Assembly: GCA_020831485.1 (NCBI GenBank)
Contig: JAFIGG010000002.1
Span: 1-64,000 of the forward strand
Direction: 5' to 3'
Origin: Opitutales bacterium
Lineage (GTDB): Bacteria > Verrucomicrobiota > Verrucomicrobiia > Opitutales > Oceanipulchritudinaceae
Length of the DNA stretch: 64,000 bases
The notes beneath the pieces were generated by a model. The model searched no databases. It was not told where the DNA came from and was given only the letters and a program-made list of their open reading frames with translations. Shown piece by piece: positions 40,276 to 63,418 of the stretch. The first letter of the stretch is position 1. Each line of letters opens with the position of its first letter. The position numbers and the translations under genes are program-made.

Positions 40276-40457
40276 CTCGTAAACAATAATTTGCCTTTAT
40301 TGTTACAGCGCAGGCAGCGTTTAGCCGTTGAATAGGCTGTTTCAACGATGAAGACGTCTTTTTGGAGTGTTTGGGTGTTTGCATCCAGTGGATCCTGGCA
40401 ATCTCTCCAAAGAACGAAATTTATCCTTGACCGAAGCGGTTCTGAATATAAATATAT

Positions 40458-40467
40458 TTGTATACAA
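40458..40467. promoter_or_regulatory. GntR-type operator candidate, right
   Basis: TTGTATACAA is a perfect 10-bp palindrome (flanked t...cc) ending 6 bp before the aspartase ATG. It shares the TGTATACA core with the site at 40265-40275. A protein bound here would cover the initiation region. Confidence 0.65.
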
Positions 40468-40473
40468 CCGGCT

Positions 40474-42306: not shown

Positions 42307-42332
42307 TTTAGAAAACCAAAAACAACTGGAAA

Positions 42333-45300: not shown

Positions 45301-45434
45301 ACCGCATCCGCGTCGGCGTCCGCAATCTCTTTGATGTGGACCCTCCTCTCACGTCCACCGGCCGTGGATACACCTGGCGCTATCACAGCAACCGTGGACG
45401 CTACTGGCACACTGCCCTGCGTGCGGACTTCTAA
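42333..45434 (+). CDS. TonB-dependent outer-membrane receptor
   Basis: A 1033-residue receptor. A signal peptide (LAAAIIPSFIVPLSTAQ) precedes the plug domain at about residues 45-195 (FEVTGSYIRQFDEEGSMPVTV; IQRVEILRDGASALYGTDATAGVVN). The 22-strand barrel ends in an aromatic terminus (LRADF). Receptors of this type take up ligands too large for porins, driven by TonB. Its place between aspartase and the transporter/peptidase genes suggests cyanophycin fragments or beta-Asp-Arg as ligand. There is no SusD-like partner. Confidence 0.94.
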   Translation: MKYSSSLSLRFRGLLAAAIIPSFIVPLSTAQDDDEIPVFDLPSFEVTGSYIRQFDEEGSMPVTVINFEDVDGEGFMTPTEFYNDLSMAGGISIGEGEDGPNAARGDVSSINLRELGPGNTLVLLNNRRLTPHPMSQSLGGTPTLVVNINTIPDAAIQRVEILRDGASALYGTDATAGVVNTILRRDYEGSRLTVRYGFSEDTTFREYRADFAHGVNFNDNRTNIAIFGQIFDRSGMRASERSYSASADSRPLLPEEWEGNNSFRNLSAVSPWAGFIAGGLSPDGNVFRGQRVRSGSTNVSTADGRFHIRPDGLLEGGITSPQNPDNVVADGNLNPESLRYDQGPDIWLTPQSRRYNLYGTLNHHLTNNLSFFMELGHYRASSMTHRAPIPMDEGLAFMIVPKTNYWNPLGSVNTPNRLPGELTIGGTALPDEGIDLLIRRYRPVDFGPRIVEVESRSNRFVAGFRGQVQNWSWESGAVWNDSRTTDTELNRVSKTLFLRDLSLDTPDAYNPFNGPFANPEEVLERSRIEVTRIGETELGLVDVRASTFNLFELAAGPVGFAAGAEYRYESYADIRDDRINGTINFDPQSMEARFPEIPTGAIPSNYQPDSSDVVGVSATENTSADRDVISAFSEMQVPIFSRRNALPGLHRLEMQLAVRHEGYSDFGSATKPKIALSWYPIPSAFIRASYSQGFRAPNLAQLYEGETERLSQGREDFYRTMYLPANEVSDRDRGFSYRQTISGGNVDLTPEETDTFSIGLVVSPPWLEGLTLSLDGWFIEQKDVISRFGVAEAIALDSYLRDTTPDMHNPNVVRTDPTPSEVTIYEAQGKRPAGEILYVYDPALNIDSRKAQGLDFAASYRIPWQALGRFTFRFNASYYLKYEENRSDLDELLDYVEGVLVPANRDVSAIGGVVPDKIRRDGFPRYRMDGSIAWRNGPWGARLAHRYMDHFYDTNATHTDTGESWKVSHATRTDFHVDYRFSVGDRFPRYRIRVGVRNLFDVDPPLTSTGRGYTWRYHSNRGRYWHTALRADF

Positions 45435-45467
45435 AATAAACCCCAACTTTATTCAGCCCGAAAGAAC

Positions 45468-46871
45468 ATGTCTTTCCGTACACCAACACTCTTAGAATCG
45501 TTAATTCCATTATTTGCCATAGCTTTATTCCTTGGCGTTGGTTATGGAGTGCTCGGAATACGGGCGGAGATACTGCTTCTTGCGGCGACTGCTGTAGCCA
45601 GTGCTCTCGCTTGGCGCATGGGCTATCGCTACAAGGATTTGGAGGAAGGTATAATAGCGAGCATGATGAAGGGCATGCCGGCAATGTTGATTGTCATCGT
45701 TGTCGGTGCCCTCATCGGTTCATGGATTGCATCAGGCACAATCCCGATGCTCATCTACTATGGTTTGGAGATTATTTCTCCGAAATACTTCCTGGTTACA
45801 GCCTGTCTGGTATCCGCAGTGGTTTCATTGGTTACGGGAACTTCCTACGGAACGGTTGGGACGATTGGTGTGGCATTTGTTGGGATTGCCGAAGGATTGG
45901 GAATCCCTTTGGGGCAGGCAGCTGGAGCCATTGTGGCTGGTGCCTATTTCGGGGATAAGCTGTCCCCCTTCTCGGACACCACAAATCTGGCGCCTATCGC
46001 GGTGCAGGGTAACCTTTACGATCATATCCGTCATACCCTCTGGACCACAACGCCTGCGATGTTGTTGGGGTTGATTGTATACTTCTATCTGGGCTTAACC
46101 CGTCATTCCGATGGAAGCAGCATCGTACCAGCTGCGATCGAAATGCAGGAAACGATTGTTGCCAACTTCACCTTTCATCCTCTGCTAATCCTTCCGCCGG
46201 TCATTACGCTTACCCTTGCGATTATGCGGAAGCCGGTCATCCCGGGAATGCTACTTGCCTCTTTGGTCGCCTCGATACTGGCGATGGTCTACCAGGGTGC
46301 TGTCTTTAAGGAGGCGATGAATGTAATGGTCATCGGATATCATGGGATTACCGGTAGCGAGATGGTCGATTTGCTGCTCCAACGCGGCGGTATGCTGTCC
46401 ATGATGAATGTAAAGTTGATCGCTTTCTGTGCATTTGCCTTCGGAGGAGTTATTCAGCACACAGGTATGCTGGCCGTTATTCTGCAGGCGTTGACACGCT
46501 TCGCGAATACGACCGGTCGACTTGTGCTCACTGCTGTGACAGCCTCAATTACCACCGCGGTGATGACTGGTAGTTCCTTCCTCTCCATTCTCATTCCCGG
46601 TGAACTCTTCGCTCCGGCATTTAAAAAGCACAAACTGGCCGCAAAGAACCTTTCCAGAACCACAGAGGACAGCGGAACAGTGATTGTTCCATTGGTTCCC
46701 TGGAGCATCGCCGGAGTGTTCATGGCTGCGACCCTGAATGTGCCAGTGATCAGCTATGCGCCATGGGCCATTCTTTGCTACACTGGATTTATCTTTGCGA
46801 TTATTTACGGATATACGGGCATCGGTATCGCGCCGAAGATCCGTGATGATGAAACCCAACCTGGAAGCTAA
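45468..46871 (+). CDS. NhaC-superfamily Na+/H+ antiporter or amino-acid transporter
   Basis: A 467-residue inner-membrane protein with about 11 helices. NhaC motifs include VTGTSYGTVGTIGVAFVGIA, GAYFGDKLSPFSDTTNLA and LPWSIAGVF-like VPLVPWSIAGVFMA. NhaC-family members include Na+/H+ and malate/lactate antiporters as well as predicted amino-acid carriers (LysW, MetT, TyrT). In this operon it is the only inner-membrane transporter, so import of beta-Asp-Arg, Arg or Asp, or export of a C4 acid, is plausible. Confidence 0.9.
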   Translation: MSFRTPTLLESLIPLFAIALFLGVGYGVLGIRAEILLLAATAVASALAWRMGYRYKDLEEGIIASMMKGMPAMLIVIVVGALIGSWIASGTIPMLIYYGLEIISPKYFLVTACLVSAVVSLVTGTSYGTVGTIGVAFVGIAEGLGIPLGQAAGAIVAGAYFGDKLSPFSDTTNLAPIAVQGNLYDHIRHTLWTTTPAMLLGLIVYFYLGLTRHSDGSSIVPAAIEMQETIVANFTFHPLLILPPVITLTLAIMRKPVIPGMLLASLVASILAMVYQGAVFKEAMNVMVIGYHGITGSEMVDLLLQRGGMLSMMNVKLIAFCAFAFGGVIQHTGMLAVILQALTRFANTTGRLVLTAVTASITTAVMTGSSFLSILIPGELFAPAFKKHKLAAKNLSRTTEDSGTVIVPLVPWSIAGVFMAATLNVPVISYAPWAILCYTGFIFAIIYGYTGIGIAPKIRDDETQPGS

Positions 46872-46876
46872 TATTT

Positions 46877-47845
46877 ATGTATACACTTGTTATCCATGGC
46901 GGAGCGGGCGCATTGAGTCGCGACGCTATGACTCCTGAAATTGAGAACTCGTTTCGCTCCGGATTGAGCCATGCACTGAATATCGGAGAAGCAATTCTCA
47001 AAAGAGGCGGATCCAGCCTGGACGCCGTTGAAGCTGCCGTCAAGGAACTCGAAGACTGTCCCTTGTTTAATGCCGGACGCGGGTCCAACTTTACATTCGA
47101 TGGCATCAACGAAATGGATGCCTCGATTATGGAAGGTGCAACGCTCCGAGCGGGCGCTGTGTCTATGGTGCGTCGTATCAAAAACCCGATAAGCCTTGCC
47201 CGCAAACTGCTCGATAAAAACGAGCACGTTTTACTCACAGCCGAAGGTGCCCAGCGTTTTGCCCGTGAATGCAGAATCGCGGAAGTCAGTGATGACTATT
47301 TTCATACCGACTTTCGCTGGCGTGCAATGCTTAGGAACCGGGATTCTGGAAGTTCCAAATTATCTGAAGATGTCGTTCCGGATGGAGAGGTCTGTGATCC
47401 TCTTGACAAAAAATTCGGCACGGTTGGCGCCGTGGCGATGGATATCGAAGGAAACCTTGCCGCTGCGACTTCTACAGGCGGCACTACTGCAAAATATCCG
47501 GGCCGCGTTGGAGACTCCGCCATCATTGGTAGCGGTACCTATGCCAACAATGAAACCTGTGCGATTTCATGCACCGGTCATGGTGAATATTTTATCCGCA
47601 ACGTTACCGCTCACGAGATCAGTAACTTGATGATGTATAAGGGTATGTCTCTGAATGAGGCCGCGGACGAGGTGGTGCATAAGCAACTCATCGAAATGGG
47701 GGGTCGCGGTGGTGTCATCGGGGTGGATACGAAAGGCAACATCGCTGTGCCTTTCAATACCCCGGGAATGTACCACGCCTACATCACATCCGATGGTCAG
47801 CACTTTACGGGGATTTTTAAGGACGAGGGCATTGCTGCCAAATGA
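46877..47845 (+). CDS. iaaA: isoaspartyl peptidase / L-asparaginase (plant-type)
   Basis: A 322-residue Ntn hydrolase without signal peptide, so cytoplasmic. VIHGGAGALSRD starts the alpha subunit. LFNAGRGSNFTFDGINEMDASIM is typical, and self-cleavage is expected before Thr182 in KKFGTVGAVAMD, with the substrate loop TSTGGTTAKYPGRVGDSAIIGSGTYA following. Plant-type enzymes hydrolyse beta-aspartyl dipeptides and are known to split beta-Asp-Arg in cyanobacteria. It lies between the transporter and the exported hydrolase (stop overlaps the next start by 4 bp). Confidence 0.95.
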   Translation: MYTLVIHGGAGALSRDAMTPEIENSFRSGLSHALNIGEAILKRGGSSLDAVEAAVKELEDCPLFNAGRGSNFTFDGINEMDASIMEGATLRAGAVSMVRRIKNPISLARKLLDKNEHVLLTAEGAQRFARECRIAEVSDDYFHTDFRWRAMLRNRDSGSSKLSEDVVPDGEVCDPLDKKFGTVGAVAMDIEGNLAAATSTGGTTAKYPGRVGDSAIIGSGTYANNETCAISCTGHGEYFIRNVTAHEISNLMMYKGMSLNEAADEVVHKQLIEMGGRGGVIGVDTKGNIAVPFNTPGMYHAYITSDGQHFTGIFKDEGIAAK

Positions 47846-48723
47846 ATTTTTCCGGACTATTTAAACTCTGCCTGATGGCTTTGCTCGTTGCCTTTGCTGG
47901 CAATGGTGCATTTGCGGATTCCCTTAAAGAAGGTAAGGGAACCTTCCGTTTTAAGAATGGAGACGGACCCGAGATTCGTGTCTTTTACTACAAGGCGAAG
48001 GATCTGCCGGACAACAGTCCGATCATGTTTGTGATGCATGGGGTCAACAGAGATGCAGATCGATATCTGGCTGAATGGCGCCGCTTAGCTCGGGAGTATG
48101 GCTTCCTCCTCATTTGTCCCGAATTCTCAGAAAATGCATTTCCTGGCGCGAGGGGTTACAATCTGGGCAATGTATTCGATACCGACGGAAACATGAATCC
48201 CGAGGAACTTTGGTCTTACTCCTATATTGAGGGAATTTTTGATGACGTTAAGAAGCGGACTGGCTACCGCAACCGCGGCTATTACATGTATGGTCATTCG
48301 GCGGGCTCTCAATTTGTTCATCGAATGATATTTTTTCAGCCCCAGGCACGGTTCATCAAGGCTGTCTCCGCCAACGCAGGTTGGTACACCCTACCGCTGC
48401 CCGATATCGACTTTCCTTACGGCCTTAACAACACTCCGGTTTCGCGCAGAGACCTGATGCGTGCCCTGAATCAACCGCTGGTTGTGCTTTTGGGCACCAA
48501 AGACAATGACCCGAACCATCGCCACTTGCGCCGGGCCCCTGAGGCGATGCGACAAGGGGACCACCGCTTCGAGCGTGGCCATACCTTCTACTTTATGGGT
48601 GAGAAGCAGGCCCGTCACCTGAGCGTCAATTTCGGCTGGGAGATCAAACATGTTCCGGGCGTTGCTCACCACAACCGTTACATGGCTGCCGCTGCAGTCG
48701 AAGAGCTTTTTGGAAACAAGTAA
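47842..48723 (+). CDS. exported alpha/beta hydrolase (paralogue 1)
   Basis: A 293-residue secreted hydrolase with signal peptide (CLMALLVAFAGNGAFA). The oxyanion region is MFVMHGVNRDADRYLAEW, the nucleophile is Ser153 in YGHSAGSQFVHRM, the probable acid is Asp in GTKDNDPNHRHL, and the His is in VPGVAHHNRYM. It is related to dienelactone-hydrolase or PHB-depolymerase-like folds. Two other genes of the operon (53076 and 54643) carry the same domain. The substrate is unknown. It directly follows the isoaspartyl peptidase and directly precedes the cyanophycinases, so a role on the polymer or its side groups is inferred. Confidence 0.85.
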   Translation: MNFSGLFKLCLMALLVAFAGNGAFADSLKEGKGTFRFKNGDGPEIRVFYYKAKDLPDNSPIMFVMHGVNRDADRYLAEWRRLAREYGFLLICPEFSENAFPGARGYNLGNVFDTDGNMNPEELWSYSYIEGIFDDVKKRTGYRNRGYYMYGHSAGSQFVHRMIFFQPQARFIKAVSANAGWYTLPLPDIDFPYGLNNTPVSRRDLMRALNQPLVVLLGTKDNDPNHRHLRRAPEAMRQGDHRFERGHTFYFMGEKQARHLSVNFGWEIKHVPGVAHHNRYMAAAAVEELFGNK

Positions 48724-48735
48724 TCACCCATTAAG

Positions 48736-49965
48736 ATGATTCCCAAATTTATGAATTCACTCCTTTCATTCCGTTCCTCAAGAACGGTGGTCGCTTCGGC
48801 GCTCATAGCGTTGCTTTCCCCGTTTTCGCTGTATGCCGAAATGCTACACAGGGAGATCCCCGAAGGCGCGGGACCGCTGGTAATCGCAGGGGGAAGTGAG
48901 AGCGAGTCCTGGGAAGAGATTTTTGCTACCATAGTGGACTTGAAGTTGGAAGGTCGACCTTTGGCTGTCTTTGGAACCGGTCAAACCGATTCCAATGCTA
49001 GATCTGCCGGGGAAAATCTGGTCGCCCGGATAAATTCGACCTTCGGCGATGACACTGCTGTCTACGTTCATATCACATCCAGCTCGGGAGGAAACGATCC
49101 AAAGAATGTGGCTGCTATTCGCGCGGCTGGCGGAGTGTTTTTTGTAGGTGGTATTCAAGGTAGAATCATGGACGGATTCACCAATTCTGATGGAGATCCC
49201 AGCCCTGCATTTGAAGCCGTCTGGGAAATTTACGCCGCGGGTGCGGTTGTCGCTGGCAGTAGTGCCGGAGCCGCCATTATGGGTAGCCCAATGATATCCG
49301 GCGGGACATCCAGCAACGCGCTGGTCCGTGGTCCAACCCCCGCAGGGTCCTCGCCGCCTGGCGTGAACTATCGCGCGGGAATGGGTTTCAATCGGGATGC
49401 GGTTTACTGCCAACACCATATCGAACGGGGCCGCTTTGGCCGCCTGCTTACCGCAGTGGTTAATCCGGTTTTTGGCAGCGATTTTGGGATAGGAATTGCT
49501 GAGGACACTGCCCTCTTGATCGACAACAGCTCTCGCATTGCAACCGTGATTGGAAGCAAGGGAAGCATAGTGATCGATGCCTCGGAAGCCGAATTGCTGG
49601 ACCGCGGGCAAATGACCGGCGTCAAAGTACACTATCTCGACCGGGGAGACCGAATTAACCTGCGGACTCGTGAGATCCACATCGCCGATGGACGCCTTCC
49701 TGCAGACCCCAGCCAAACCGGTGATGCGATTGCGGTCGATGCCTGGGATGCGAATGCCATCTACGACCTGATGGTGCAAATTATGGATACCCAAGGGGTC
49801 GATTCCGGCATAGCCATCGATACAAACTTTAACCTCATTTTCGAAGCCACCAAAAACACGCAGCTGCTCCGCATGACCGATGAAACGGACGGTGTTCGCC
49901 CAACCTGGAGTGTCATCGATATGTCCCTGAGTGTTCTGCGCCGGGATGATGAAGCTCCTATCTGA
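48736..49965 (+). CDS. cphE: exported cyanophycinase
   Basis: A 409-residue S51-type serine peptidase that cuts cyanophycin into beta-Asp-Arg dipeptides. The signal peptide (VVASALIALLSPFSLYA) indicates export, like secreted CphE and unlike cytoplasmic CphB. The family motifs are present: GPLVIAGGSES, FFVGGIQGRIM, nucleophile Ser176 in AGSSAGAAIM, VYCQHHIERGRFGRLL, GIAEDTALLI. The usual Asp-Gln-His-Phe of this strand is Cys-Gln-His-His here. The second copy, downstream, is a close paralogue. Confidence 0.9.
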   Translation: MIPKFMNSLLSFRSSRTVVASALIALLSPFSLYAEMLHREIPEGAGPLVIAGGSESESWEEIFATIVDLKLEGRPLAVFGTGQTDSNARSAGENLVARINSTFGDDTAVYVHITSSSGGNDPKNVAAIRAAGGVFFVGGIQGRIMDGFTNSDGDPSPAFEAVWEIYAAGAVVAGSSAGAAIMGSPMISGGTSSNALVRGPTPAGSSPPGVNYRAGMGFNRDAVYCQHHIERGRFGRLLTAVVNPVFGSDFGIGIAEDTALLIDNSSRIATVIGSKGSIVIDASEAELLDRGQMTGVKVHYLDRGDRINLRTREIHIADGRLPADPSQTGDAIAVDAWDANAIYDLMVQIMDTQGVDSGIAIDTNFNLIFEATKNTQLLRMTDETDGVRPTWSVIDMSLSVLRRDDEAPI

Positions 49966-49986
49966 AGAAAATATCAACTTAAGCAA

Positions 49987-52191
49987 ATGAATCTTAAACT
50001 TATGAATTCACCTCTCTCATTCAATTCTTTCAGAAGGGTAGCTGTTTCGGCGCTCATCGCCCTACTCTCCTCTTTTACGCTATTTGCTGATACCTTGCCC
50101 ACCGAAATCCCGGAAGGTGCCGGCCCGCTTGTGATTGCAGGTGGAGGTGTAAACCAATCCTGGGATGAAATCTTCGGTACCATCGTCGACTTGAAGCTGG
50201 AAGACCGTCCGCTGGCCATTTTCGGGACCGGGCAATCCGTTTCCAATGCCCGCCCGGCAGGAGAAAATTTAGTCGACCGTATCAATACCACCTTTGGCGA
50301 AGGCACGGCGATATACGTTCATATTACTTCCAGTTCAGGCGGAAACGATCCGGACAACGCGGATGCGATTCTCTCTGCCGGAGGGGTGTTTTTTATTGGC
50401 GGCAGTCAGACAAGCATCATGAACGGTTTCACCAATTCCGGAGGAACTCCGACCCCTGCACTTGAAGCAATCTGGGAGATCTATGCAGAGGGTGCGGTTA
50501 TTGCGGGCAGCAGTGCCGGGGCCGCGATTATGAGCGACCCAATGATTTCCGGCGGGACTTCCAGCAATGCGTTGGCCCGCGGGGCAACCCCTGCCGGGTC
50601 CTCTCAGCCTGGAGTGAGCTATCGCGCGGGAATGGGCTTCAATCAAGATGCTGTCTACTGCCAGCACCATATTGAACGGGGCCGCTTTGGTCGCTTGCTC
50701 GCCGCCGTGGTCAGCCCGATTTTTGGCAGCGACCTGGGGATCGGAATTGCCGAGGACACTGCCCTATTGATCGACAACAGCACTCGCATTGGAACTGTGA
50801 TTGGAGGCAAGGGAAGCATAGTGATCGATGCCTCGGAAGCCGAATTACTGGATCGCGGTCAAATGACCGGCGTCAAAGTACACTACCTCGATCGGGGGGA
50901 TCGGATTAACCTGTTGACTCGTGAGATCTACATTGCCGATGGACGCCTTCCTGCAAATCCCAGCCAAACTGGTGATGAGATTACGGTGGGTGCCTGGGGC
51001 ACGAATGCCATCTACGACCTGATGGTACAAATCATGGACACGCAAGGGATCGACTCTGGGATCGCCAGCGATACAAACTTTGACCTCATTTTCGAAGCCA
51101 CCGGGGATACGCAGTTACTCCGAATGACCGACGAAGCGGACGGAGTTCGTCCAACCTGGAGTGTCACCGATATGACTCTGAGTGTGCTGCGGCGGGACGA
51201 TGAAGCTTCCCATTACCTGCATGACTGGCACTTCGAGGAAGCCGAAGGAACCGAAATGTCGGCAACTTTGAATTCAGCCCGGCCCTGGGTTACCTGGAAC
51301 GGCAATCTGGCGGATTCTTTTACCACCGGTGACGGTACTTTTCGCATCCAACGCAACGCTGGTGGTTTGAACCGGCGGGTCGATGTAGGCGAGACTGACG
51401 GCGCCGAAATCCTCTACATGCTAGTCGATTTTGCCGGCTGGAATCTTGCCGACGTTACCAATCCGGATGCCGGTGACATTGAGATTCGAATGCACTTTAT
51501 GAACGGCGAGGCCGCCGACAATCCTGGCCAGATCACCGCTGGTATGCGCCTGATTCACAATACGGATGGAACCGTCTCACTGCAGGCCGACTCGACCGGC
51601 ACAGCCGCGCCCGGTGGTGAAACCAGTGAGCCAGTGAGCCTCTTCAGCGAAACCCAACTGGAGGACCTGAAACTGGTAACTGCTTACAACACTGTTAAGC
51701 ACTCCTATTCAGTCTACTACCAGGAAGGTGATGGTGACTGGGTGGAATTCTTTGCCGGGAACACAAGCGGCCTTCGCGCTGCGATCTCTTTCAGAATGTG
51801 GATCCGGGGCGATTTCTATGGCGACGGTTTGAACTACATGGACCTGAATCGTTTCGCCGTAACAACCTTTTTCCCGGACGGAGACCCAGTGGATCAAGGC
51901 GATTCCGTAAGTATCTGGGATGAACTGGAAACGATCAACAACACTGGCTTTAAGGACACCAATATTGGGATTGTCTGGGACCAGCAATGGCCATGGGTCT
52001 ACCACGCGCCTTCACATGGCTGGATTTGGTTCAATTCCGAACAGGACTTGACCGAGGACGCCGGTATTTGGGGCTACCACGTGAATGCTTCCAAATGGAT
52101 CTGGGTCGGTCTGGAAGTCGACGGTTGGGTCTATGAAATGGGCGAGTCTTCGGAACAGTGGACGCCGGCAACAGAAATTGGGAATGACTAA
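49987..52191 (+). CDS. cphE: exported cyanophycinase with C-terminal binding modules
   Basis: A 734-residue secreted protein. Residues ~30-410 are a cyanophycinase closely matching the previous gene (Ser176 in GSSAGAAIM, YCQHHIERGRFGRLL, GIAEDTALLI). Residues ~415-625 are a DWHFEEAEGTEM-type beta-sandwich module, also seen in 52222, 53076 and 57606. The last ~95 residues are a Trp/Tyr-rich tail (WVYHAPSHGWIWF; ASKWIWVGLEVDGWVYEM). The modules probably hold the enzyme to the polymer granule or the cell surface. It arose by tandem duplication plus module gain. Confidence 0.9.
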   Translation: MNLKLMNSPLSFNSFRRVAVSALIALLSSFTLFADTLPTEIPEGAGPLVIAGGGVNQSWDEIFGTIVDLKLEDRPLAIFGTGQSVSNARPAGENLVDRINTTFGEGTAIYVHITSSSGGNDPDNADAILSAGGVFFIGGSQTSIMNGFTNSGGTPTPALEAIWEIYAEGAVIAGSSAGAAIMSDPMISGGTSSNALARGATPAGSSQPGVSYRAGMGFNQDAVYCQHHIERGRFGRLLAAVVSPIFGSDLGIGIAEDTALLIDNSTRIGTVIGGKGSIVIDASEAELLDRGQMTGVKVHYLDRGDRINLLTREIYIADGRLPANPSQTGDEITVGAWGTNAIYDLMVQIMDTQGIDSGIASDTNFDLIFEATGDTQLLRMTDEADGVRPTWSVTDMTLSVLRRDDEASHYLHDWHFEEAEGTEMSATLNSARPWVTWNGNLADSFTTGDGTFRIQRNAGGLNRRVDVGETDGAEILYMLVDFAGWNLADVTNPDAGDIEIRMHFMNGEAADNPGQITAGMRLIHNTDGTVSLQADSTGTAAPGGETSEPVSLFSETQLEDLKLVTAYNTVKHSYSVYYQEGDGDWVEFFAGNTSGLRAAISFRMWIRGDFYGDGLNYMDLNRFAVTTFFPDGDPVDQGDSVSIWDELETINNTGFKDTNIGIVWDQQWPWVYHAPSHGWIWFNSEQDLTEDAGIWGYHVNASKWIWVGLEVDGWVYEMGESSEQWTPATEIGND

Positions 52192-52221
52192 GATAGGATA
52201 ACGTTAAAAGGAAGGACGAAA

Positions 52222-53034
52222 ATGAAAAAGGGAATACTAATATTGAGCTGCGCCGGATTCGTCTGCGCATCGTATTTGAGTGCTAGCATACTCCACCATT
52301 GGAGTTTTGATGAGGCGATGGGGACAAACATTACGGATACCGTTAATTCGGCATCCCCTGGCGCTAACTGGAGCGATTGGAATGGCGACTCCGATGTGAC
52401 CGACATTTCAGGAACCACTACAGGAAACGGTTCGCTTCGAATCGAAACAACGGTCGCAGCCAGAGAGTCCCGCGTTCTGGTAGGAAACACAGGTGGAGCC
52501 GACACCTTGTTTCTGCGGACAAGAATTAACAGTTGGGAAATGACGGATACCGCGCAGATCAGGCTAGGTTTCATGAACAATGACCCCATATTTTCCGGTT
52601 CCAGTATTTATGCCGAAACTCGTTTTAACCTGCTCGGCGACAATAGTGTGGCTCTCGAGTCAGTGGCACTTGGAGGAGGGACAAGCTCTCCATCGGAAAC
52701 CCTATTCAGCAACATTATGAACCAACCCTTGGACCTGGTTCTGGGCGTGAACACAACGACCAATATGTATACTGTTCACTATCGAATTGGGTCGGACGCA
52801 TGGGTGGAGTTTTACGAAGGTGCACTTTCTTCAGCGCGTGAACCGTTGAACTTCCGGATGTATTACACCGCTGGAAGCGATGGAGAGATCACGATGGACA
52901 TAGACAGTGTCACCTTGAGCACCGTCAACCCGATCCCCGAGCCTCAAACCTATGCACTTATGTTGGGTTTCGCGGCGATTGGTTTTGTCTATCTGCGCCG
53001 CCGTCGCATCGGCCGTAAGACCGATGCAGCTTAA
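52222..53034 (+). CDS. PEP-CTERM protein with beta-sandwich module
   Basis: A 270-residue exported protein. A signal peptide (ILSCAGFVCASYLSASIL) is followed by one module of the same family as in the second cyanophycinase (HHWSFDEAMGTNITDTVNS; a C-terminal VHYRIGSDAWVEFYEG). The end is a PEP-CTERM sorting signal, IPEPQTYALMLGFAAIGFVYLRRRR. A strong Shine-Dalgarno (aaggaaggac) is present. It should be sorted to the envelope or surface by an exosortase, whose gene is not in the window. A binding or anchoring role is inferred. Confidence 0.85.
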   Translation: MKKGILILSCAGFVCASYLSASILHHWSFDEAMGTNITDTVNSASPGANWSDWNGDSDVTDISGTTTGNGSLRIETTVAARESRVLVGNTGGADTLFLRTRINSWEMTDTAQIRLGFMNNDPIFSGSSIYAETRFNLLGDNSVALESVALGGGTSSPSETLFSNIMNQPLDLVLGVNTTTNMYTVHYRIGSDAWVEFYEGALSSAREPLNFRMYYTAGSDGEITMDIDSVTLSTVNPIPEPQTYALMLGFAAIGFVYLRRRRIGRKTDAA

Positions 53035-53075
53035 TCGAGCCCTGCCCTTTCAAACTGCCATTACCGATACCTTTC

Positions 53076-54653
53076 ATGTTAACTAAATCCATCAGATGCC
53101 TCCTTCTGTTCGCCTTGCTGCTCCCAGTCTATGCGGCAAGCGGAAAGATCCTTCACGACTGGCAATTCAATGACCGGCGAGATACACCCCTGTCGGGAAC
53201 CCTGAATACTGCCTCCCGCTTCACCAACTGGGATGGCAATTTGGCGAATTCCAGAGCAACTGGTGACGGCTTATTCCGGATTCGTCGGGATGGTGGCGGT
53301 AATAACAGGCGGTTTGATTTGGGCAACACGGGAGACGCAGACGAATTCTTTCTGGTCGTTGAGATCGCCGGTTGGAACTTCACGAACACCCAGGGCCGCA
53401 ATCCAAATATCCGCTTTGAGTTCATGAACGAGCCTGCCCGGACTAATACCACCGAGACCACTGCTGGAATGCGGCTGGAAAGGATGCCAAATGGCTTGGT
53501 TTCAATGCAGGGATTTGCCTCCGGTACAGCCGCACCTGGTGGGCAGGCAAGCGATCCGAGGCCTCTGTTTAACTCATACATGAATCAGAAGCTGACGATG
53601 GTGACATCCTACAGCAAAAGCTTGAACCAGTATGTAGTGCACTTCCGTGTGGGTGACGGGCCTTGGTACGAATTCTTCCGAGGGCATACGAGTGGCGTCC
53701 GGGATGCTAAATCCGTTCGTATGCGCGTGTTCGGAGACTTCGATGGGGGCGGTCGCAATTACTTCAATATAGAACGCCTGTATGTATCAACTGAGTTTCC
53801 AAAGGACGCGCCCATCAGTCGTGAGCGACTCTGGCGCGAGGTTCAGGAAGAACAGCTCGACAAGTTCGTTTTTTCTCCCTCGGAGGGAGTAGAGATGGAT
53901 ATCTACTACTATACACCAGAGAACCTCACACCCGAGAGCCCTGTGGTGATGGTATTACATGGAGTGAATCGCGATGCAGACAGGTATTTGAGGCAGTGGC
54001 GATCGCTGGCCGCAGAGTACGGTTTTCTCCTGATCGTGCCTGAATTCAGTCAGGACAATTTCCCTGGCGACAGAGGCTATATCATGGGAAAAGTATTTGA
54101 TAGCGATGGAGAGAGAAATCCTAGGGAGACCTGGGCCTATTCTGCTCTCGAACCATTGTTTGATGAGGTTCTGGATCGCTTTGAAAACAGCAATGAGGGC
54201 TACTATCTCTACGGCCACTCGGCTGGCTCCCAGTTTGTTCACCGGATGAATTATTTTGTCCCGGATGCACGCTTTATCCATGCCGTCTCCGCAAATGCCG
54301 GTTGGTACACCCTGCCCACACACGAAATCGATTTCCCGTATGGTCTGAACAATACGGGAGTTTCCGAAGAGGAGCTTAAGCATGCGCTGAGCCAGCCCAT
54401 GCTGATTCTGTTGGGTGAAGAAGATAACGATCCAAATCATCGCCATTTGAGACGGGCACCCGAAGCAATGGAACAAGGAGCACATCGTTTTGCCCGTGGT
54501 AACAACTATTACAAGCGGGGCCAGGAAGCCGCAGAGGAACTTGGGGTCGAATTCGGCTGGCAGATTCAGACAGTTCCGGGTGTGGCCCACAACAATGCGC
54601 ACATGGCCGTCGAGGCTGCTGCATTTCTATTTAAAAACAAAAATGAAAATTAG
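53076..54653 (+). CDS. exported module plus alpha/beta hydrolase (paralogue 2)
   Basis: A 525-residue secreted protein. A signal peptide (LLLFALLLPVYAASG) leads into an N-terminal beta-sandwich module at about residues 25-245 (LHDWQFNDRRDTPLSG; NFTNTQGRNPNIRFEFMN). A C-terminal alpha/beta hydrolase covers about residues 255-520 with Ser382 in YGHSAGSQFVHRM, MVLHGVNRDADRYLRQW and VPGVAHNNAHM. The hydrolase part matches paralogue 1 nearly motif for motif. The stop overlaps the next gene by 11 bp. Confidence 0.85.
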   Translation: MLTKSIRCLLLFALLLPVYAASGKILHDWQFNDRRDTPLSGTLNTASRFTNWDGNLANSRATGDGLFRIRRDGGGNNRRFDLGNTGDADEFFLVVEIAGWNFTNTQGRNPNIRFEFMNEPARTNTTETTAGMRLERMPNGLVSMQGFASGTAAPGGQASDPRPLFNSYMNQKLTMVTSYSKSLNQYVVHFRVGDGPWYEFFRGHTSGVRDAKSVRMRVFGDFDGGGRNYFNIERLYVSTEFPKDAPISRERLWREVQEEQLDKFVFSPSEGVEMDIYYYTPENLTPESPVVMVLHGVNRDADRYLRQWRSLAAEYGFLLIVPEFSQDNFPGDRGYIMGKVFDSDGERNPRETWAYSALEPLFDEVLDRFENSNEGYYLYGHSAGSQFVHRMNYFVPDARFIHAVSANAGWYTLPTHEIDFPYGLNNTGVSEEELKHALSQPMLILLGEEDNDPNHRHLRRAPEAMEQGAHRFARGNNYYKRGQEAAEELGVEFGWQIQTVPGVAHNNAHMAVEAAAFLFKNKNEN

Positions 54654-56415
54654 GTTCTATTTCAGCGTTCTATTGGCCCTGCAACTGCCGCTTTTGGCAG
54701 GTGCTATTAGCCAGGGTGTTGACAGCTACATCTTCAATCCACCGGGTCATCCGGACAAAGATGTACCTGTCTGGACCTATCGTCCACCAGGCCTTTCATT
54801 GGATGCGCCCATTGTTTTTGTCTGTCATGGCACGAATCGAAATGGCGAGACTTACCGGAACAATTGGATACAGGAGGCCAACGAGCTCCGATTCATCCTG
54901 ATTGTTCCTGAATTCACTTCCGACGCGTTCCCCGGCTCACGACGTTACAACCAAGGGTATATGCTAACTTTAGGCGGCGACCCCATTCCCAGGGAGCAGT
55001 GGTCGACCCAGGTCATTGAAGATCTGTTCGATGATGTTGTTTCCCGAACCGAGGGAGGCCAGGAACACTATTATTTATACGGACACTCGGCTGGTGGACA
55101 ATTTGTGCAACGATTGCTGTTCTTTCTCCCTGACATCCGGGTGGCAAAGGCAGTCATTGCAAACCCCGGCTGGTATACCGTAGCCGACACGGCGATTGAA
55201 TACCCTTTCGGGTTGGACAACAGTCCATTTGATTTGGAACTACTGGGAGAAAGATTGGGCGAAGGCCACGCCCTGCTGCTTTCTGAAAACGACAACGATC
55301 CCAATGCAAACTCACTGAACCGTAGTCCTGAAGCGGACGCCCAGGGCACCAACCGTTTTGACCGGGGCCTGTTCTTTCATGCACATACCGGGGAATTCGC
55401 GCAGTCCAATGATTTCGACTTCAATTGGAGCCTCGCTTTTGCACCCAATATCGCGCACTCAAACTCGGACGTATCTCCTTATGCCGCACGCCTGCTATTC
55501 AGTGACTGGAAGCAAGTTGGTGCCTATCTTTACAACGGAGATGGCTCGGAGATCACCCAGGACTTCTCAAGGGGCCTTCCAGCATCGACCAACAACAATA
55601 ATGAATGGATTGATAACGAAACCTTCCCGGGTTGGTATATAGAGTTTGCTGAGACTGGAGTTCCGGAAACATACCGCATCAACCACCTGACAACTGCGGG
55701 AAGTGTCCAACAATGGAGGGCAAACGAGACGGCAACAGAGGGCTTTATAGGCGGTCGGGCTAGCGACACAAGCGGTGATATCCACTATGCCCTGCGCATT
55801 ACGAACAACAGCGGCCAGGCTCTGAATCGATTCACCTTGAGCTACACGGGAGTTCAGTTCCGCAACAGCAACTCAGGCGTTCAGAATACAATTGAGGTCG
55901 ATTGGAAGACTGGGCCGGTTTCCTCCATTGCCCATGATGAAGGTTGGGTTGCGGTTCCTGAACTCACATTCAATGCACCTCACGTGGGAGATGGGGAGAG
56001 TTCCGCGGTGAACGTGGATCCCTACGATTCGAATAATCGAATCGCCCTTGGGCCTTTGACGATTGAAGACGTTCTATGGTTGCCAGGCGAATCGCTCTGG
56101 CTGCGTTGGACGGATGAAAATGCACCTGGGGTCGACCATGGTATTGGAATCGATTCGGTCCAGTTTTCCGCCTTGAGAACTGAGTTTGACCCAGGGCTCT
56201 CGCTAGAGCTGATGGCCGTTGCGATTGGTGATTCCGAAATTCGCTTGGCGCTCGGCGAGTCCGAACTCGGATTCTTCTATCAGTTGCAGGCCAGCTCGTC
56301 GCTGGACCAATGGGAAGACCTGGGAGAACCGGCTGTTGGAAACGGCCCATTGGAGTGGATCGTTGAGGCCGACGAAGACAGCAAGTTCTACCGCATTTAT
56401 CGCTATCAACCTTAA
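54643..56415 (+). CDS. exported alpha/beta hydrolase with C-terminal domains (paralogue 3)
   Basis: A 590-residue secreted protein; the start at 54643 gives the signal peptide MKIRFYFSVLLALQLPLLAG. The hydrolase domain (about residues 20-290) has VFVCHGTNRNGETYRNNW, Ser149 in YGHSAGGQFVQRL and LSENDNDPNAN; the His is likely the one in PNIAHSNSD. Then a beta-rich domain (about 300-520) and a C-terminal FYQLQASSSLDQWEDLGE repeat of a kind frequent in secreted verrucomicrobial proteins. It is the most divergent of the three paralogues. No PEP-CTERM tail. Confidence 0.83.
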   Translation: MKIRFYFSVLLALQLPLLAGAISQGVDSYIFNPPGHPDKDVPVWTYRPPGLSLDAPIVFVCHGTNRNGETYRNNWIQEANELRFILIVPEFTSDAFPGSRRYNQGYMLTLGGDPIPREQWSTQVIEDLFDDVVSRTEGGQEHYYLYGHSAGGQFVQRLLFFLPDIRVAKAVIANPGWYTVADTAIEYPFGLDNSPFDLELLGERLGEGHALLLSENDNDPNANSLNRSPEADAQGTNRFDRGLFFHAHTGEFAQSNDFDFNWSLAFAPNIAHSNSDVSPYAARLLFSDWKQVGAYLYNGDGSEITQDFSRGLPASTNNNNEWIDNETFPGWYIEFAETGVPETYRINHLTTAGSVQQWRANETATEGFIGGRASDTSGDIHYALRITNNSGQALNRFTLSYTGVQFRNSNSGVQNTIEVDWKTGPVSSIAHDEGWVAVPELTFNAPHVGDGESSAVNVDPYDSNNRIALGPLTIEDVLWLPGESLWLRWTDENAPGVDHGIGIDSVQFSALRTEFDPGLSLELMAVAIGDSEIRLALGESELGFFYQLQASSSLDQWEDLGEPAVGNGPLEWIVEADEDSKFYRIYRYQP

Positions 56416-56432
56416 TCAAGCTACACCTTATT

Positions 56433-57584
56433 ATGAAACTTAGAAATATCAATTTCTTCATTGCGGCCAGTTGTGGCTTTGCATTCGCAAACCTTGCTAC
56501 AGCCGGTGAAACCATCGTTCTTCTGGGCGGTGATACGGACTTTGCCGAAAGCTATATGCCCCGTGATGAGAGAATCTTGGCTAATGGCTATGATTATGGC
56601 TTAGAGAAGCTCAAGCCGTTTTTGCAACGCGCCGACCACCGGATCATCAACCTGGAAGTTCCGATCGTGGATCCGAAACTGTTCCCTAGCCCTTTTGAAG
56701 GAGATAAAGGCTATATTCACTGGGGCGATCCCAGAGAAGTGCCAGCTGCTCTTGCCCGTCATAACATTGAAGCCGTGAGTCTTGGTAATAATCACACTCT
56801 CGACCATGGCCTCGAGGGATTGATCAGTACCTTGCTTTTACTTGAGCGCCAGGACATTGCCGTCTTTGGTGCTGGGCTCGATCAAGAGGAAGCTGACCGG
56901 CCCTACGAAGTCGACCTTGATGTCGGTGGCGAGCCGCTCCGCCTCGCGGTTTTTGGTCCCTTTGAATACCGCCAGGTATATGAGGACAAATACAAGTGGT
57001 ATGCGAAGCCGGATTATCCGGGATCCTCCGCAATACACGATGATGGTGAACCCATTGCTTCTGCGATCAGGGACTACAAAAAGATCAATCCGGATGCCTT
57101 TGTGATCGCCTACCCTCACTGGGGCAATAATTACGTCTGGCGCAACGAACAGCAGCGCTCCCAGGCCGAAGCCCTCGTCGCAGCCGGTGCTGACCTAATC
57201 GTTGGTCACGGTGCTCACTGCCTCCAGGATATCGAGAAAATTGATGACACCTGGGTCGTCTACAGTCTCGGCAATTTTCTCTTCAATACACCTGGCCGCT
57301 TTGCCCTGTTCGAAGAAGAGCGCGGAATTCTTCCCTACGGCTTGGTGGGAATGCTGCATTTCGAACGGAATTCCGACGCCCTGGAAGCAAAAATCCGTCT
57401 GTATCCAATTTACTCCAATAACCGTATTACCGAGTATCAACCCTATCCTGTTTCAAAGGAGTCCTTCGAGGAAGCCTATGCGAAGGTTGTTGAACTCGCA
57501 TCTAAAGCACCAGGCGACTTCGCCAACTCCATTCTTCGAGGCGAAGATGACCTGGGCTTCTATATCGAACTGAACCTAGACTAA
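56433..57584 (+). CDS. CapA-like exported protein
   Basis: A 383-residue protein with signal peptide (FFIAASCGFAFANLATAG) and a CapA/PgsA-type metallophosphatase-like fold. Motifs seen are VLLGGDTDFAES, NLEVPIVD, VSLGNNHTLDHG, AYPHWGNNYVW, IVGHGAHCLQD, VVYSLGNFLFN. CapA proteins are tied to poly-gamma-glutamate synthesis and are related to enzymes that act on phosphoryl or amide bonds. Here there are no capB/capC genes, so capsule synthesis is unlikely; a role in handling a polyamide is possible. Confidence 0.85.
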   Translation: MKLRNINFFIAASCGFAFANLATAGETIVLLGGDTDFAESYMPRDERILANGYDYGLEKLKPFLQRADHRIINLEVPIVDPKLFPSPFEGDKGYIHWGDPREVPAALARHNIEAVSLGNNHTLDHGLEGLISTLLLLERQDIAVFGAGLDQEEADRPYEVDLDVGGEPLRLAVFGPFEYRQVYEDKYKWYAKPDYPGSSAIHDDGEPIASAIRDYKKINPDAFVIAYPHWGNNYVWRNEQQRSQAEALVAAGADLIVGHGAHCLQDIEKIDDTWVVYSLGNFLFNTPGRFALFEEERGILPYGLVGMLHFERNSDALEAKIRLYPIYSNNRITEYQPYPVSKESFEEAYAKVVELASKAPGDFANSILRGEDDLGFYIELNLD

Positions 57585-57605
57585 ACCACAATCACCTTAC
57601 GAAAT

Positions 57606-59324
57606 ATGAAACTTTTGAATAAAATTATAACTACGGCCGGGATCGCTCTTGCGACCTTAACGGCCCAAGCCATTGAGCTCCATGACTGGCAGTTCAATGA
57701 TGTTGCCGGAACGACTGTTTCGGGCGCTGTAAATCAAGGCCTGCATGGCACTTTCTGGGATGGCAACATTGCAGACTCAACTACTACCGGTGAGGGGACC
57801 CTTCGCATCCAGCGCACCGGAGGTCTAGTTAGCCGTCGTGCAGACGTTGGTGACAACCAAGCTTCCGCTGAACTTCACATGACGATCGTCATTGCGGGAT
57901 GGAACCTCACAGATCCAGTCGATGATAGTGTCGGACAACCACGCCTACGTTTTGAATTCTTGAACGGATTCGCAGCAGATGCACCAACTGCAGTCACAGC
58001 CAGTGTGCGATTTGAGCGATTCAGCAATGGAGAAGTTGCTCTCCAGGCATATGCGAGAGGAACTGCCGCCCCAGGATACGAGGAAAGCGACATGATCCCT
58101 CTCTTCTCCTCTGTTCAAGAAGAGCCGGTCACAATTCAAATTAGCTACAATCGTCTCAGCCACTTCTATACAGTTAACTATAAGGTCGGAGATGATGAGT
58201 TCACCCAATTGTTCACTGGCACCACCAGTGGGCTCCGTGATGCCGAGTCAATTCGCCTGGCCGTACAAGGCGATTTTCTAGGAGACGGAACAGGTTATCT
58301 GGACATTGACCGCTTCGCCGTATCCACAGAGGTGCCGATTTCCGAACCTGATGGCCCGGATGAAGAGCCCGAACCCTTCTTTGGAATCCTTCACGAATGG
58401 ATCTTCGACGAGGCTGAAGGAACAGCGTTGGAAGACACTGTGAACATTGCCAACCCTGATGTCCCCTGGGACGGAAACCTTGCTGACTCAGCGACCACCG
58501 GAGAAGGGATCTTCCGTATTCAGCGGGATGGAGGCCTCACAAGTCGTCGGATCGACGTCGGCACTACTTTTGGCGCGGAATACGTCTACTATGCAATTGA
58601 ATCTGCTGGTTGGGATTTTAGTTCAGTCTCTTCCTCTGACAGCCAACCACACCTTCGCTTCGAGCTTCTGAACGGACTGGCCGAAAGCGGAACAACAGCC
58701 ATCACTGCTGGCATGCGTCTCAACCGTTTGGAAAATGGTGACATAACCCTGCAGGCGCTGGCTAGTGGATCAGCTGAAACGATCGGAGTTGGAACTGACG
58801 AAATCGTGGTTTTTGACTCAGTTCAGGAAGAGCCAGTAAAACTGATCCTCGAGTACAACCGCCTCGAGCACTGGTATCGGATCTGGTATCGGGTCGGTAA
58901 CGGCGAGTTGATCGAATTCTTTGAGGGAACAACCAGCAACCTGCGTGATGCCATATCCTTGCGCATGGCAGTTCGTGGTAATTTTGCCGGCACAGGCGAC
59001 GGATACTTTGATCTGGATCGCGTGTTGGTTGCGAACGATTACCCATACGAAGCCGACCCTGTCAGCCCTTGGGAAGGAATCGAAACCATTGCCGGCTCCG
59101 ATTTCAAATTGACGTCGATCGGCGGCATCATGGACACCAACTATCCTTGGATCTATCATGCTGATCTCCGTTCCTGGGTTTATGTTTCAGCTGACGGGGA
59201 TGAAGGAATCTTTGGCTTCATTCCTGAGCTGGACGTCTGGGTATGGACAACTGTCGATGCAGGCGCCTGGATTTATGTATATGGGGACAATGAGGGATGG
59301 TCCGATTGGGCCTCCCTTAATTAA
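57606..59324 (+). CDS. exported two-module protein with Trp-rich tail
   Basis: A 572-residue secreted protein without an enzyme domain. A signal peptide (AGIALATLTAQAIE) is followed by two copies of the beta-sandwich module, about residues 22-240 (LHDWQFNDVAGTTVSG) and 258-480 (LHEWIFDEAEGTALED). A Pro/Glu linker (EPDGPDEEPEPF) separates them. The last ~75 residues form the same Trp/Tyr-rich tail as in the second cyanophycinase (YPWIYHADLRSWVYV; LDVWVWTTVDAGAWIYV). A polymer-binding or surface protein is the likely role. It is the last gene before two hairpins. Confidence 0.82.
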   Translation: MKLLNKIITTAGIALATLTAQAIELHDWQFNDVAGTTVSGAVNQGLHGTFWDGNIADSTTTGEGTLRIQRTGGLVSRRADVGDNQASAELHMTIVIAGWNLTDPVDDSVGQPRLRFEFLNGFAADAPTAVTASVRFERFSNGEVALQAYARGTAAPGYEESDMIPLFSSVQEEPVTIQISYNRLSHFYTVNYKVGDDEFTQLFTGTTSGLRDAESIRLAVQGDFLGDGTGYLDIDRFAVSTEVPISEPDGPDEEPEPFFGILHEWIFDEAEGTALEDTVNIANPDVPWDGNLADSATTGEGIFRIQRDGGLTSRRIDVGTTFGAEYVYYAIESAGWDFSSVSSSDSQPHLRFELLNGLAESGTTAITAGMRLNRLENGDITLQALASGSAETIGVGTDEIVVFDSVQEEPVKLILEYNRLEHWYRIWYRVGNGELIEFFEGTTSNLRDAISLRMAVRGNFAGTGDGYFDLDRVLVANDYPYEADPVSPWEGIETIAGSDFKLTSIGGIMDTNYPWIYHADLRSWVYVSADGDEGIFGFIPELDVWVWTTVDAGAWIYVYGDNEGWSDWASLN

Positions 59325-61549: not shown

Positions 61550-63418
61550 ATGTATACCGAAAGGACAATGATCTCCTCAACGATGGAAACCGTTGCAGCT
61601 GGCTGCGACTACCCTCTCAATTCAACCCCTCCAACTGAAAACAAGGACGTTTTGCGTTGGATTGACCGAATCACCCGCCTGGTTGAGCCGGACCGCATTC
61701 ACTGGGTCGACGGCAGCGATGCAGAAGCCAATGCGCTTTTCCAAATGATGGTGGACAAGGGACACTGTATTCGCTTGAACGAAAGCCTGCGGCCCAACAG
61801 CTTTCTGTTTCGTTCGGATCCGAAGGATGTCGCCCGGGTCGAAAGCCGAACATTTATTTGCTCCCGCTCCAAGGACGAAGCTGGTCCGACCAATAACTGG
61901 ATGGATCCGGAAGAAATGAAGGAGAAGATCAATAGTCTGGCCAAAGGCAGCATGAAAGGGCGGACACTCTATGTCATTCCCTTCAGCATGGGACCTATCG
62001 GTTCGCCTATTTCCGGAATCGGGATTGAGCTTTCAGACTCGCCCTACGTGTTTGTGAACATGCGTATCATGACCCGAGTAGGAAAAGCCGTTTGGGATGC
62101 CCTCGGCGACAGCCGCAACTACGTGCGCTGTGTGCATTCGGTTGGCTGCCCTATCCAGAGTCCTGAGGACGACGTCGCATGGCCTTGCGACCCGCAAAAT
62201 ACATGCATTGCCCACTTCCCCGAGGAGCGAACCATTTTGAGTTATGGATCGGGCTATGGCGGCAATGCACTGCTTGGGAAAAAATGCTTCGCCCTGCGCA
62301 TTGCTTCGGCGATGGCCCGGGATGAGGGCTGGCTGGCAGAGCACATGCTGATCCTCGGGGTCAAGGATCCCGAGGGCAGAAAGACTTATGTTTCTGCAGC
62401 CTTTCCGAGTGCCTGTGGGAAGACCAATTTTGCCATGTTGATCCCGCCGAAGGAACTTCAAAAGGACGGCTGGGAAGTCAGCTGCGTTGGAGATGACATC
62501 GCCTGGATCAAACCTGGTCCCGATGGAAGACTGCGTGCGATCAATCCCGAAACCGGATTTTTTGGTGTGGCGCCTGGCACCAGCGATGCAACCAATCCAA
62601 TGGCCATGGCGTCCTGTAGCCGGGACACAATTTTCACGAATGTGGCACTCACCGACGACGGTGATGTTTGGTGGGAAGGAATGACGCCTACCCCACCGGA
62701 ACATTTGATAGACTGGCAGGGCGAGGATTGGACGCCGGATACCGGACGTCCCAGCAGCCATCCGAACAGCCGCTTTACAGCGCCGGCGGAGAATTGTCCG
62801 ATCATTGACGAAGCCTGGCAGGATCCTGAAGGTGTTGAATTGGGGGCCATTGTTTTCGGGGGTCGTCGCATGAGTACAATCCCCCTCGTGTTTCAATCAT
62901 TCAATTGGCAACACGGTGTTTATTTGGGAGCCACGGTTGGCTCCGAGCAGACCGCTGCCGCTGAAGGAAAAGTGGGTGCCATGCGGAGGGATCCCTTTGC
63001 CATGCTGCCATTTTGTGGATACCACATGGGCGACTATTTCCGTCATTGGCTAAAAATGGGGAAGAAGGTAAATGACCCACCGCGTATTTTCCATGTCAAT
63101 TGGTTCCGGAAGTCCGAGGACGGTCAGTTCCTGTGGCCTGGCTTCGGGGAAAATATGCGGATTCTCCGCTGGATTGTTGAGCGGGTTCGGGGAGAAGGAC
63201 ATGCCAGCGAAACACCAATCGGTTGGATGCCCCGTTACAAGGACATTGATTGGCGAGGTCTGGATTACCCGGAAAGCCAGTGGGACGAGGCCATGAAAAT
63301 CGATTCTGAAACCCTCAAGGTGCAAACCCTGGGCCACGAGGAACTGTTTCTTAAACTCTGGGATCACATTCCAAAGGAGCTGCTCTGGCAGCGGGATCTG
63401 TTGATCTCACGCTACTGA
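61550..63418 (+). CDS. pckG: phosphoenolpyruvate carboxykinase (GTP)
   Basis: Makes PEP from oxaloacetate with GTP, the entry to gluconeogenesis from C4 acids. The 622 residues fit the GTP class. Motifs include [22 protein letters not shown], the P-loop [13 protein letters not shown] (Cys289, Lys291), [10 protein letters not shown] and the C-terminal FHVNWFRK. Alternative ATGs are at 61568 and 61583. It lies 35 bp after the S9 peptidase gene. In this setting it would use oxaloacetate formed from aspartase-derived fumarate. Confidence 0.95.

Follow-up and report, generated by a model that had tools for sequence, protein, structure and literature searches.

The 64-kb stretch of DNA analysed here (positions 1 to 64,000 of contig JAFIGG010000002.1 of an Opitutales bacterium; G000:C60:1-64000), hereafter the window, encodes a domain of about 225 residues that was found in five copies in four secreted proteins of a single tight operon, all on the plus strand. 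We propose, with about even confidence, that this domain is a non-catalytic targeting module of depolymerases acting on aspartate polymers. This reading best accounts for a predicted concanavalin A-like (ConA-like) fold without a catalytic match, carried by both depolymerases and non-catalytic partners of one operon and recurring with the same unrelated enzymes in other genomes.

The module-bearing open reading frames (ORFs) are in frame with the copies, and each begins with a signal peptide. Copy 1 (51211-51888) is C-terminal to the S51 catalytic domain of the protein encoded at 49987-52191. Copy 2 (52282-52947) forms the entire body of the protein 52222-53034, whose PEP-CTERM signal (PF07589) scored over the Pfam cut-off, and copy 3 (53142-53816) is N-terminal to the PahZ1-like domain of 53076-54653. 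Copies 4 (57669-58352) and 5 (58386-59057) are the first and second modules of 57606-59324. Alignment of the five copies (A1) showed 29 invariant columns and pairwise identities of 33-48%, with 36-46% between copy 1 and the other copies, 33-46% between copy 3 and the others, and 48% between copies 4 and 5. All ten pairs scored 36-95 standard deviations over shuffled sequences (200 shuffles per pair), which bears out the initial annotation in its count of five modules in four proteins of one operon. Copy 1 matched the A1 profile with an E value of 1e-112, and BLAST comparisons with copy 3 gave 5e-61 (47% identity) for copy 1, 1e-58 (46%) for copy 4, 8e-57 (42%) for copy 5 and 5e-26 (34%) for copy 2. 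The last, which had been described as less strict, is indeed the most divergent, at 33-36% identity. Profile and BLAST searches of the bacterium's own genome (3.86 Mb, 97% complete, to which all statements on this genome refer) found no sixth copy; a general domain of the secretome was thus rejected, no copy lying outside the operon. By gene content and closest relatives, this genome would sit near the Opitutales (Verrucomicrobiota).

To obtain a predicted fold, AlphaFold2 was given the five window copies alone, and the model of copy 3 was all-beta with a mean pLDDT of 84 and a pTM of 0.85. The best Foldseek matches were legume lectins (E about 1e-6, best 8e-7). In VIA-align the top match was the phage Dit CBM2 module (Z 15.9, 3.3 A, 190 residues), ahead of a sialidase domain, a PL14 alginate lyase (Z 14.5), and the ERGIC-53 and trans-sialidase lectin domains, with lectins at Z 13-14. 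The model is a two-sheet jelly roll that aligned over 172-201 residues, so the structure prediction for which the initial annotation had called returned a fold of the lectin or carbohydrate-binding module (CBM) type. As modelled, this is the ConA-like jelly roll, the usual scaffold of polymer-binding modules, and such a fold alone is proof of neither glycan binding nor any function. The likeness to the ConA-like lectin/glucanase superfamily (Laminin_G_3, legume lectins, phage Dit CBM2, trans-sialidase lectin domain) extends over the whole module at Z 13-16 and a root-mean-square deviation of 3-4 A, but sequence identity in the structural alignments is only 4-16%, and the carriers of the module would act on amide-linked polymers rather than glycans. 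By sequence, the module matched no ConA-type family of Pfam at E 0.1, Laminin_G_3 included, and gave no useful match in NCBIfam or the PDB. An enzymatic function of the module was rejected, as no catalytic family matched by sequence and the module is repeated on non-catalytic carriers. Whereas CBMs sit on carbohydrate-active enzymes, the close module copies are found on S51, PahZ1 and serine-hydrolase proteins.

Two enzyme families of the operon are central to the proposed role. The initial annotation, which spoke of hydrolases, had overlooked that both of these genes, and the preceding one, belong to the PahZ1 family of poly(aspartic acid) hydrolases. All three are full-length homologues of PahZ1 with the catalytic Ser-Asp-His motifs kept: the secreted PahZ1a (47842-48723; 6ve6, E 1e-73; GHSAGSQ, DNDP and VAHHN motifs), which has no module; the PahZ1b catalytic domain (53859-54653) behind module copy 3, 61% identical to PahZ1a; and PahZ1c (54643-55500; 6ve6, E 1.5e-62), whose ATG start at 54643 overlaps the preceding gene. 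They resemble the PahZ1 enzymes of Sphingomonas KT-1 (6ve6) and Pedobacter KP-2 over the full length and in these motifs; unlike those systems, the window has three paralogues, of which one follows a module and another precedes a second beta domain. The other family is represented by two cyanophycinase-like S51 enzymes, S51a (48736-49965), which has a signal peptide and no module, and S51b (49987-51210; 7uqv, E 5e-21), the catalytic domain in front of copy 1. Aligned with cyanophycinase, for which catalytic and pocket residues have been published (PMC3235067), both keep the Ser-His-Glu triad, Gln101, Gln173, Arg178, Arg180 and Arg183, and both have Cys at the position of the pocket residue Asp172 (YCQHH in S51a). 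Their scores, 110.5 bits for S51a and 106 bits for S51b, are under the curated TIGR02069 cut-off of 126.6.

The twelve genes of the operon (40348-59324) are separated by eleven gaps of -11 to +41 bp. Their order is aspartate ammonia-lyase (AspA), TonB receptor, NhaC-type antiporter, isoaspartyl peptidase, PahZ1a, S51a, S51b-module-Trp-rich domain, module-PEP-CTERM, module-PahZ1b, PahZ1c-module B, PGA_cap, and module-module-Trp-rich domain. Judged by gene content, the operon appears to be a set for dismantling aspartate-based polymers. PahZ1, AspA (40348-42306; NF008909, 694 bits, cut-off 510) and the isoaspartyl peptidase/asparaginase (Asparaginase_2, 46877-47845; PF01112, E 1e-113) all point toward aspartate, and the polymer backbone is therefore probably aspartate. 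No cphA1 match over the cut-off was found in the genome, so the bacterium would scavenge the polymer. Cyanophycin utilization loci, which combine cyanophycinase, isoaspartyl dipeptidase and a transporter with no cphA1 (PMC10206079), are alike in their clustered S51 enzymes, isoaspartyl peptidase and transporters and in the absence of cphA1 over the cut-off. The window differs from them in adding three PahZ1 enzymes, AspA and the module proteins, in S51 copies that are without Asp172 and below the cyanophycinase cut-off, and in that no arginase or arginine deiminase (ArcA) was matched in the genome; SpeA is present and may be biosynthetic. A cyanophycin-binding module, as first suggested, is only one possible version of the targeting reading and is too specific, given the Cys in S51a and S51b, the missing arginine enzymes and catabolic genes that point to aspartate. 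Mid-distance relatives of the module adjoin gamma-glutamyltransferases and an N-formylglutamate-amidohydrolase-like (FGase-like) protein, which further speaks against cyanophycin as the ligand.

To follow the module beyond the window, we searched genomes of the order (273, later 366; the enlargement brought no further module carrier) and of the phylum. The family was present in 13 of the 366 and in 7 of 388 genomes, respectively, and close copies (E below 1e-50) in only three genomes of the order. This profile search, proposed with the initial annotation, returned relatives that are neighbours of, or part of one protein with, cyanophycinase-type enzymes and poly(Asp) hydrolases. There are three close copies outside the window. 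The most informative, in a metagenome-assembled genome of an Opitutia bacterium (L029/L045), is part of one 1062-residue protein with the architecture S51-module-PahZ1-module B, in which the S51 domain has the canonical DQHF..R.R..R pocket with all published pocket residues; Asp172 is likewise kept in the S51 enzyme of L087. The other two (L030 and L031) are followed by a repeat region and, by inspection, a serine beta-lactamase-like C-terminus; a PahZ1 fragment is just upstream on the L030 contig, and L031 is near an oligopeptide ABC transporter. Scans of further genome contigs and viral sequences with the module pattern recovered the fused relative L045 and nothing else. Two more genomes (G191 and G055) have divergent copies flanking their S51 genes. 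Among the 273 genomes, module and S51 co-occurred in 5, with 0.67 expected (p 2e-4), and in 4 against 0.57 expected without the window's own genome (p 1e-3). Both S51 and PahZ1 are present in only four genomes, three of which are the only ones with close module copies. In a module tree, 11 of 12 copies near S51 or PahZ1 fall on one side and the carriers of glycoside hydrolase families GH16 and GH5 on the other, although the support (79/99) is weak. Across 16 diverged relatives Trp78 and Arg187 are invariant and Arg193 is nearly so, and the conserved Arg positions, which could conceivably line a face for binding a polyanion, are also present in relatives from other gene contexts. Frequent use on polysaccharide enzymes, which would have spoken against the initial annotation, was not observed in the close subfamily, GH16 and GH5 occurring only among distant relatives.

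These observations suggest how the module might work. As a targeting module, the beta-sandwich would keep secreted depolymerases on an insoluble or high-mass poly(amino acid) with an aspartate backbone, cyanophycin or a relative, in a mode comparable to the substrate-binding domain of extracellular polyhydroxybutyrate (PHB) depolymerases or to a CBM on a cellulase. The PEP-CTERM protein and the twin-module protein, neither of them catalytic, would bind the polymer and tether it to the cell surface. Depolymerization would be extracellular or periplasmic and the products would enter via the TonB receptor; the isoaspartyl peptidase, presumed to be cytoplasmic, would release aspartate, which AspA would then convert to fumarate and ammonia. 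By inspection, signal peptides are present on the S51, PahZ1, PGA_cap and module proteins, and none was seen on the isoaspartyl peptidase or AspA. The substrate-binding domains of PHB and polyhydroxyalkanoate depolymerases are likewise non-catalytic and accompany an alpha/beta-hydrolase that depolymerizes a storage polymer, but the present module is also on S51 enzymes and non-catalytic carriers, and the likeness drawn here is one of architecture. PahZ1 itself is akin to PHB depolymerases (PMC4456602).

Several observations weigh against a role in targeting aspartate polymers. Ligands known for the ConA-like fold are mostly glycans, and S51a, PahZ1a and PahZ1c have no module. Two close copies (G119 and G085) are on the proteins with a serine beta-lactamase-type C-terminus, and the co-occurrence counts are low, uncorrected for shared ancestry and not phylogenetically independent, with G085 and G119 coming from a single family. 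Relatives were also found in gamma-glutamyltransferase operons (G069, G071 and G022), beside FGase-like proteins (G042 and G035; loci L035 and L037), and, for the most distant ones, on a GH16 protein (L039) and, by inspection, a cellulase-like GH5 protein (L044), with domain E values of 5e-8 and 5e-4. The FGase assignment of the neighbours in G042 and G119 is below the Pfam cut-off, and the G035 neighbour gave no FGase match and has shared sequence features only. These contexts indicate that the family, taken broadly, is not restricted to aspartate polymers. Since several of the neighbours act on glutamyl bonds, the wider family may, from these few cases, accompany enzymes of acidic, amide-linked polymers in general.

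Of the alternatives, the one that survives best, though we regard it as rather unlikely, is that the module recognizes an envelope or matrix glycan of the bacterium itself and so retains the enzymes, together with the twin-module protein, at the cell, whatever the polymer. Glycans are the usual ligands of ConA-like folds, PEP-CTERM proteins are associated with the extracellular matrix, and the genome encodes two exosortases in addition to the PEP-CTERM carrier. Two carriers, 49987-52191 and 57606-59324, share a C-terminal Trp-rich domain of about 90 residues (51910-52188, E 1.5e-34 to its own profile A6, and 59064-59321), which went unmentioned in the initial annotation and has no Pfam match; its nine weaker relatives elsewhere in the genome suggest that it is probably a general surface domain. 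The occurrence of module relatives with enzymes of differing substrates fits as well. A general anchor would, however, be expected on other secreted enzymes, whereas all five copies are in this operon and close copies are so rare in the order. The annotated idea of a substrate- or surface-binding domain, similar to a CBM, thus stood in that the module is a domain of its own, does not look enzymatic and has been shuffled among carriers with and without catalytic function, but not in the cyanophycin ligand.

It is improbable that the module binds a glycan accompanying the substrate, such as a cyanobacterial sheath or wall polysaccharide, and in this way directs the enzymes to the remains of cyanobacteria and not to the polymer itself. 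In cyanobacteria, cyanophycin forms intracellular granules, which a scavenger would meet inside dead cells, and both the ConA-like predicted fold and the distant relatives on GH16 and GH5 proteins are compatible with such a ligand, but Pfam and domain annotation of the operon revealed no glycoside hydrolase or polysaccharide lyase. It seems very improbable that the modules bind each other or a partner and thereby gather the enzymes and the twin-module protein in a single complex: lone modules on enzymes and a pair on a non-catalytic protein resemble plug and scaffold, yet known scaffolds use different domains for plug and socket, and in L029 one module is fused into a protein that already bears both enzymes. 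Least probable of all is a ligand-free spacer or folding unit spread by local duplication, which the proximity of all five copies in one operon would allow and against which speak the conserved Trp78, Arg187 and Arg193, the retention of full length at such low identity, and the module's independent reappearance in other genomes alongside the same kinds of enzyme.

The remaining genes of the operon were also inspected. AspA has an extra N-terminal region of about 185 residues that is cNMP-binding-like (PF00027, borderline), an unusual architecture. It is followed by the TonB-dependent receptor (42333-45434) and the NhaC-type antiporter (45468-46871; TIGR00931, 488 bits, cut-off 370). A different non-catalytic beta domain, module B (55528-56175), is C-terminal to PahZ1c and 50% identical to its counterpart in L029/L045; its model, from two sequences, is of low confidence (pLDDT 49.5). 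This third hydrolase (54643-56415), with its different beta domain and no module, is also an addition to the initial annotation. A secreted PGA_cap (CapA-like) protein (56433-57584; PF09587, E 3e-52) sits inside the aspartate-polymer operon. A divergent GntR regulator (39478-40185, minus strand) lies ahead of the operon, and an S9 peptidase and a GTP-dependent phosphoenolpyruvate (PEP) carboxykinase (61550-63418) come after it.

Related gene sets were seen in other genomes. In L084 (7023-9320, plus strand) and L085 (5934-8216, minus strand) a single ORF joins a PahZ1-like hydrolase to a DcuC-family C4-dicarboxylate carrier, apparently a depolymerase linked to its putative transporter; both fusions adjoin a TonB receptor 37% identical to that of the window, and in L084 an M20 peptidase adjoins as well. 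In L091, PahZ1 is beside a TonB receptor and a GTP-dependent PEP carboxykinase (L091:12235-14058); that two genomes have this carboxykinase close to PahZ1 and TonB genes is consistent with growth on a C4 amino acid by gluconeogenesis. Gamma-glutamyltransferases, an enolase-superfamily epimerase-like protein and an NhaC-type antiporter are near a module relative in L033 (annotated), L034 and L036 (by inspection), together with a diaminopentanoate-dehydrogenase-like protein and a module-B-type PEP-CTERM protein, and this cluster is possibly for gamma-glutamyl polymers. Large secreted FGase-like proteins with Calx-beta and Laminin_G_3 domains were found at L087:1-2511, on the same contig as a canonical cyanophycinase gene, and at L035:12953-15622, near a module relative.

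Polymer-targeting modules on depolymerases are of an already known kind. In the open-access papers searched, we saw neither a binding module reported for depolymerases of cyanophycin or poly-aspartate nor an account of this module sequence family, its place on S51 and PahZ1 enzymes, or a link between PahZ1 and cyanophycinase-type enzymes. One open-access paper presents PahZ1 enzymes as degraders of thermally made poly(Asp), with no natural substrate named, and to our knowledge these "poly(aspartic acid) hydrolases" are known only from the degradation of synthetic polymer. Through the operon and the single S51-module-PahZ1 protein, PahZ1 is linked to enzymes of the cyanophycinase type, to isoaspartyl peptidase and to the catabolism of aspartate. 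Tentatively, and with less than even confidence, we suggest that this could be the first known case of a binding module that directs bacterial depolymerases to a storage polymer of the poly(amino acid) type, and that PahZ1 belongs naturally to extracellular systems scavenging cyanophycin or poly-aspartate. If true, the module would provide a cheap affinity domain for an insoluble nitrogen polymer, useful for its detection or purification, and the operon and the fused relative make the natural role of PahZ1 directly testable.

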